DNA from: Elusimicrobia bacterium HGW-Elusimicrobia-3
GTDB taxonomy: Bacteria > Elusimicrobiota > Elusimicrobia > Elusimicrobiales > UBA9959
DNA length: 56,837 bases
Assembly: GCA_002840355.1 (NCBI GenBank)
Contig: PHAL01000011.1
Coordinates: forward strand, 1-56,837
Direction of reading: 5' to 3'
The notes below the pieces were generated by a model that was not told the DNA's origin, searched no databases, and was given only the letters and a program-made list of their open reading frames with translations. Below, piece by piece: positions 18,914 to 20,506 of the stretch. Every line of letters starts with the position of its first letter. Positions within the stretch are counted from its first letter, which is position 1. The translations under genes were made by a program, and so were the position numbers.

Positions 18914-19279
18914 ATGAAAAACGATATACACCCCAAATACACTCTCTGCGAGGTCTCCTGCGTCTGCGGTAACGCTTTCCAGACCCGCTCCGTGAAGCCC
19001 GCGATCAAAGTCGAAATGTGCTCCGCTTGCCACCCGTTCTACACCGGCAAGCAGAAGATGCTCGACACCGCCGGCCGCGTGGAGCGCTTCAACAAGAAGT
19101 TCGCTTCCACCGAAGGCAAGATGGTTGAGCGCAAGGCCAAGAAGCTCGCCGTGAAGGCCGTGGCCCCGCGCCACACCGTCAAGCGCAAGCTCTCCTCCGC
19201 CGCCGTCGTGGCCAAGAAGGACGAGAAGCCCGCTGCGAAGGCCGCTCCCAAGGCCGCGCCGAAAACCGAGACGAAGTAG
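18914..19279 (+). CDS. rpmE: Ribosomal protein L31 with long basic tail
   Basis: A 121-residue large-subunit protein. Residues 1-70 are ordinary L31 (MKNDIHPKY, then [20 protein letters not shown]), with the zinc-binding type Cys set C13, C17, C19 and the CSAC pair near residues 37-40. Typical L31 proteins end near residue 70. Here a further 50 residues rich in Lys, Ala and Pro follow ([11 protein letters not shown]-type repeats), probably disordered and RNA-binding. The gene has its own promoter and a strong terminator, so it is probably a single-gene unit. Confidence 0.92.
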
Positions 19280-19290
19280 CTTCGCTCCAG

Positions 19291-19326
19291 AAACGGGCGT
19301 TCCATGCCATGGGACGCCCGTTTTTT
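19291..19326 (+). terminator. Rho-independent terminator after rpmE
   Basis: The stem is AAACGGGCGT (19291-19300) with ACGCCCGTTT (19314-19323), extended by TCC/GGG, followed by a run of T to 19326. It is strong and in the right place after rpmE. Confidence 0.9.
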
Positions 19327-19333
19327 CATATTT

Positions 19334-19426
19334 GGGGACGCTGATGACTATATGACTATTTTGTCCGTTAGTGGTAATGGAAATGCCGGCCAGTTTTCAA
19401 ATAGTCATATAGTCATCAGCGTCCCC
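19334..19426. repeat. 93-bp perfect inverted-repeat element before prfA
   Basis: Two perfect 28-nt arms (19334-19361 and 19399-19426) flank a 37-nt spacer. Each arm begins or ends with GGGGACGCTG/CAGCGTCCCC and contains a tandem duplication of ATGACTAT (19344-19351 and 19352-19359; mirrored at 19401-19416). Its AT-rich core differs from the surrounding GC-rich DNA. It ends 6 nt before the prfA ATG. The form fits a small non-autonomous element such as a REP/RAYT-type hairpin or a MITE. No transposase or target-site duplication is visible. Confidence 0.8.
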
Positions 19427-19432
19427 TAGCCT

Positions 19433-20506
<1,074 letters not shown>

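Follow-up and report, generated by a model that had tools for sequence, protein, structure and literature searches.

A probable non-autonomous miniature element with TIRYT-type terminal inverted repeats between rpmE and prfA in an Elusimicrobiota genome

Introduction

Several of the closest described systems are built around Y1 transposases. In TIRtrons, also termed TIRYTs, a Y1 transposase gene is located between terminal inverted repeats (TIRs), of which many, but only some, share the sequence GGGGWSAS; copies of the TIRs occur elsewhere, also as dimers (Di Nocera et al. 2013, PMC3733652). The TnpAREP proteins of subclass 2.1.2 belong to the RAYT branch and possess a Bac_DnaA_C-like C-terminal domain. 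REP-like sequences were not found near the corresponding genes, and their TIRs were reported to bear no resemblance to DnaA boxes (Quentin et al. 2018, PMC6006769).

Here, we analyze an inverted-repeat element located upstream of prfA in a metagenome-assembled genome (MAG) of the Elusimicrobiota. The window, namely the whole stretch of 56,837 nucleotides that was analyzed, is part of the genome referred to as G000, whereas the remaining G numbers designate related genomes.

Results

The locus comprises the following features.

18914..19279, + strand: rpmE, the upstream neighbor, named from the first-pass annotation and inspection of the sequence
19289..19325, + strand: intrinsic terminator of rpmE, a 17-bp stem followed by T's, adjoining the insertion point
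19334..19426, no strand assigned: whole miniature element (TIR dimer, 93 bp), defined by its arms and the copies in the genome
19334..19361, + strand: left TIR (arm), GGGGACG-CTG-ATGACTAT-ATGACTAT-TT, the same sequence as that over the transposase stop codon
19344..19359, + strand: tandem octamer pair of the left TIR (period-8 repeat), the lineage-specific part
19362..19398, no strand assigned: loop, unique, with no second copy found in its own genome or in the relatives searched
19399..19426, - strand: right TIR (arm), the inverted copy, defined by arm complementarity
19401..19416, - strand: tandem octamer pair of the right TIR (period-8 repeat)
19433..20506, + strand: prfA, the downstream neighbor, named from the first-pass annotation and the sequence

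The first-pass annotation had described a perfect inverted repeat, and this was confirmed: the two arms of 28 nt are 100% complementary and enclose a loop of 37 nt, ATGACTAT is duplicated in tandem (19344-19351 and 19352-19359) and mirrored in the opposite arm, and the termini are GGGG and CCCC. The AT-richness of the element was also evident, its GC content being 0.45, whereas the window as a whole has 0.65 and the 1-kb flanks have 0.62 to 0.67. The predicted RNA fold has an energy of -56.2 kcal/mol (z of -9.4 versus shuffles), and a z of -12.2 versus shuffles was obtained for the DNA fold. No inverted repeat was found inside a single arm, no promoter was predicted within the element, with the sole promoter being upstream of rpmE, and a PDB sequence search at E 0.001 found no relative.

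As originally described, the element is situated between the rpmE terminator and the prfA start: it begins 8 nt past the terminator stem, and the prfA start codon follows 6 nt past its end. Nearly every relative contains one full-length prfA orthologue. The reported lack of a Shine-Dalgarno sequence upstream of prfA was also apparent; the element is not the cause, since relatives lacking an insertion in this spacer have no visible Shine-Dalgarno sequence either. The suggestion that the hairpin may bury the prfA start was not borne out because the AUG lies outside the arms in the predicted fold, and hiding of the start codon was thus rejected.

It had been proposed that the element is a REP/RAYT-type or MITE-like unit, along with a search for further copies, for a transposase gene next to one of them, and for empty sites in relatives. 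All three were found. The first 18 nt of the arm have 15 exact copies in the G000 genome, as compared with 1 control match. The arm forms part of five further hairpins (C41:15054, C41:83159, C57:24513, C58:5480, and C89:21867), the loops of which are unlike one another, and three single arms were identified (C57:26278, C75:14272, and C95:19713). The arm sequence also overlaps, as the right TIR, the stop codon of a transposase gene at C57, the single Y1_Tnp gene of this genome. Empty prfA spacers in relatives are presented below. The hairpin at C65:5510-5593 belongs to a second TIR family; it bears TTATCCGCG and TTATCGACA at the inner edges of its arms, and no transposase matching this family was found in the G000 assembly. 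As a separate observation, a sequence of about 100 nt (GGTACGGCCCCTCGCTCCTGACCGCAGG...) in the left flank of one of these loci (L024, G000:C58; query 1088-1196) has many matches in G012, G022, G024, and G030, and looks like another repeat family that is unrelated to the TIRs.

The transposase matches PF01797 with 36.5 bits (cut-off 23). It scores 62.7 bits against NF047646, below the curated cut-off of 80, and residues 251-308 match PF08299 weakly, with 29.0 bits (E 1e-6), just below the cut-off of 31.5. An HFH motif is visible in the sequence. Judging from these matches, the protein possesses a RAYT-like Y1 domain and a C-terminal DnaA-like helix-turn-helix, the architecture of TnpAREP subclass 2.1.2, which has been equated with TIRYT in the literature. 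Both TIRs flank the orthologous transposase gene in G014 and G008 (L126 and L129). In G000, the left TIR was not found within 170 bp of the gene, and the current activity of the transposase in this genome is therefore uncertain; this copy may have lost the ability to move as a unit.

A small conserved hairpin, CCCGACA-nnnnn-TTGTCGGG followed by CTGCTATNCTATT, was noted about 30 to 60 bp before the transposase start codon. In the window genome it is present at C57 (L021:2725-2780), and it likewise precedes nearly all TIRYT genes of L126 to L145; it may be a promoter or operator of the transposase gene.

Approximately 40 transposase genes of the DnaA helix-turn-helix class were read from relatives, and nearly all of them are flanked by TIRs, with the left one upstream and the right one at or near the stop codon. 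The TIRs consist of GGGGACG (AGGGACG in a few cases), 3 nt, and two tandem octamers. For 32 of these genes the TIRs were compared; a subgroup with a period of 7 (L133, L136, and L137) was excluded from the test. Octamer identity was 0.875 at period 8 versus 0.16 to 0.26 at other periods. There were 28 distinct TIRs among the 32, and their divergence tracked that of the whole proteins (Mantel r of 0.65, p of 0.0002). The octamers are specific to each transposase lineage. Hairpins of the GGGGACG-CGTCCCC type with real arms were observed mainly in the Elusimicrobiota family of the window genome (genera g1, g10, g12, and g13), and isolated ones elsewhere in the phylum sample. Shorter RAYT-like proteins without the DnaA-like domain have other ends, such as GGGGACAGGCTACTTTTT. 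Genes for RAYT-like proteins of 211 to 245 aa (L108, L109, L112, and L116) were also seen between other palindromes, for example AAAAAGGTGCCTGGCACCTTTTT and GTCTGAGAACTTTT/AAAAGTTCTCAGAC.

The spacer upstream of prfA was compared at 30 orthologous positions. A GGGGACG or AGGGACG hairpin was present within a few bases of the same position in nine genomes (G000, G014, G008, G022, G030, G024, G025, G012, and G001), whereas at least 10 others have a hairpin-free spacer, including G005, G017, G018, and G028. The arm families at this site were ATGACTAT in G000 and G008, CTTCCTAT in G014, ATTCCTAA in G022, TTAACTAT/TGGACTAT in G030, TTGAGTTG in G024, and TTGACTAT in G025. In all 6 decidable genomes (G000, G008, G014, G022, G024, and G030), the prfA arm is identical to the TIR of a transposase of the same genome; no Y1 gene was found in the G025 assembly. 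The difference between families is illustrated by G000 and G014, in which both flanks at prfA are 94 to 96% identical and neither the octamers nor the loop are shared. An unrelated and larger inverted repeat, GGGGACAGGGTTAGTAAAAC, was seen at the same location in G007 (L074).

The site at prfA is not unique in this respect. Among 55 distinct elements, flank homology revealed approximately 11 other sites that are common to several genomes, and the TIR family differs at most of them. At the rimO site (C41:83159; gene named from the N-terminal sequence), six genomes harbor elements of four families and three genomes are empty; alignable loops are common to G000 and G008, and to G014 and G030. According to a rough estimate based on 7 elements in G000, about 27 in G014, and about 1,500 spacers, 0.1 shared sites are expected by chance, as compared with the 3 sites that these two genomes share with different families. 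A control pair, L180/L197, is of the same family and has a similar, alignable loop, although its flanks are only 80 to 88% identical. Under vertical descent the loop thus remains recognizable, and the presence of different families at one site indicates exchange or new insertion.

Two alternatives to repeated insertion bear on these data. The first is that a single ancient insertion persists at prfA while gene conversion or inter-element recombination rewrites its arms so that they fit the resident transposase. The conservation of position to within a few bases in nine genomes, the GGGGACG end common to all families, and the existence of hybrid elements with one GACTAT half and one TTCCTAA half are consistent with this scenario. 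However, the loops of G000 and G014 are unrelated and that of L180/L197 has been kept despite lower flank identity, which implies that the whole unit was exchanged and not the arms alone; we therefore regard such rewriting as unlikely. The second is that insertion is rare and that different occupants result from interspecies exchange of the locus by homologous recombination across the flanking genes. This would account for the grouping of G000 with G008 and of G014 with G030 at rimO, which contrasts with the closeness of G000 and G014 at prfA. Yet the 94 to 96% identity of these two genomes at prfA extends to the element from either side, so that exchange would need breakpoints near the element ends, and in six genomes the occupant belongs to the family of the resident transposase, making locus exchange an improbable explanation as well. 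A conserved regulatory RNA hairpin controlling prfA as an attenuator or translation switch is very unlikely: a very stable hairpin does lie 6 nt ahead of the start codon and the site is filled in many close relatives, but copies adjoin many unrelated genes, the arm family differs between sister genomes, more than a dozen relatives with an intact prfA have an empty site, and no Rfam family was found at the gathering score, with only microRNA-like sub-threshold matches due to the hairpin shape. A single copy conserved at prfA in all relatives, the pattern that the first-pass annotation had associated with a regulatory RNA, was not observed; the element is neither single-site nor conserved with prfA, which contradicts such an RNA as its primary nature.

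The set of 55 distinct elements was analyzed further. An A was found at the junction of 85 of the 110 element ends, resulting in the pattern A/GGGG...CCCC/T (slashes mark the junctions). No consistent target-site duplication was seen by eye in the 55 elements. A terminator-like hairpin was located at 70 nt or less from 19 of the 55 elements, as compared with 20 of 784 random positions in the same loci, which were mostly coding. Nearly all loops are unique despite the perfect arms, one element pair with a common loop being that of G008:C7. Such unique loops between perfect arms are not predicted by a simple copy-and-paste of whole elements.

An inward-facing DnaA-box-like motif, TTATNNACA, was detected in 9 of the 55 elements, whereas 0.5 elements were expected from shuffled inner sequences. 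Its distance to the end of the element was 25 or 26 nt in every case. Some transposase genes (L034, L143, and L144) have the motif as well, immediately inside their TIR. The window element does not contain it. The motif could be read by the DnaA-like domain of the transposase or by the host DnaA.

Discussion

Taking the data on copies, transposase, and orthologous sites together, the element beside prfA is very probably a non-autonomous miniature transposable element, consisting of a pair of TIRYT TIRs and a short passenger loop. We infer its mobility solely from the comparison of empty and filled sites.

A mechanism can be proposed on this basis. On single-stranded DNA, for example the template of the lagging strand, the arms would pair to form a long hairpin, and the transposase encoded by the single C57 gene would recognize the constant GGGGACG end and the tandem octamers and cut at the A/GGGG...CCCC/T junction. 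The unit would then be pasted into short intergenic spacers, apparently with a preference for positions beside a terminator hairpin. The short stretch separating the rpmE terminator from the prfA start codon would be dispensable, which would explain why an insertion was tolerated here. The same spacers may be reused by different transposase lineages, so that each lineage would refill a site with a new TIR family. A more elaborate version, in which a modular tandem-octamer code that the transposase reads and that changes along with it sets the TIR family, shared spacers are refilled by the active family through replacement of whole elements with new loops, and the DnaA-box-like motif at its fixed position couples the elements to replication, is put forward tentatively and is, as a whole, rather unlikely.

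The likeness to TIRtrons/TIRYTs (PMC3733652) comprises the TIR-flanked Y1 transposase and the dispersed TIR copies, including dimers. In terms of sequence, GGGGACGC conforms to the GGGGWS part of GGGGWSAS but has a G rather than an A at position 7. Unlike in that system, the elements described here are from Elusimicrobiota, the TIR is composed of GGGGACG and a lineage-specific pair of tandem octamers, and different families occupy many orthologous sites of related genomes. The RAYT-branch protein shares with TnpAREP subclass 2.1.2 (PMC6006769) the Bac_DnaA_C-like C-terminal domain; in contrast to that subclass, a subset of the elements contains TTATNNACA within the TIR, at a fixed position.

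The initial classification as a REP/RAYT or MITE-like unit holds in part: the element is repeated, MITE-like, and tied to a RAYT-type transposase, but it is not a classical REP or REPIN. Like the REPINs of REP-RAYT systems (Bertels and Rainey 2011, PMC3116915), it is a short, non-autonomous, intergenic, and RAYT-linked inverted pair that forms a hairpin. Its arms, however, are not palindromic GTAG-tagged REPs, since they start with GGGGACG and contain tandem direct octamers; the loops are unique, and the copies found in each genome numbered from one to a few dozen. Similarly, it resembles a MITE in being a miniature element that bears the TIRs of the resident transposase, and differs in that no target-site duplication was seen, the enzyme is of the single-strand HUH rather than the DDE type, and the loop is, as far as seen, not a remnant of a transposase gene.

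TIRYTs are a barely studied branch of RAYT transposases, and their name occurs in only two papers of the literature searched. With 28 distinct TIRs of known partner protein and dozens of sites that are either filled or empty, the clade analyzed here makes it possible to test how DNA is recognized, how targets are chosen, and why the loops are unique. The spacers at prfA and rimO provide ready-made insertion hot spots for the study of site choice.
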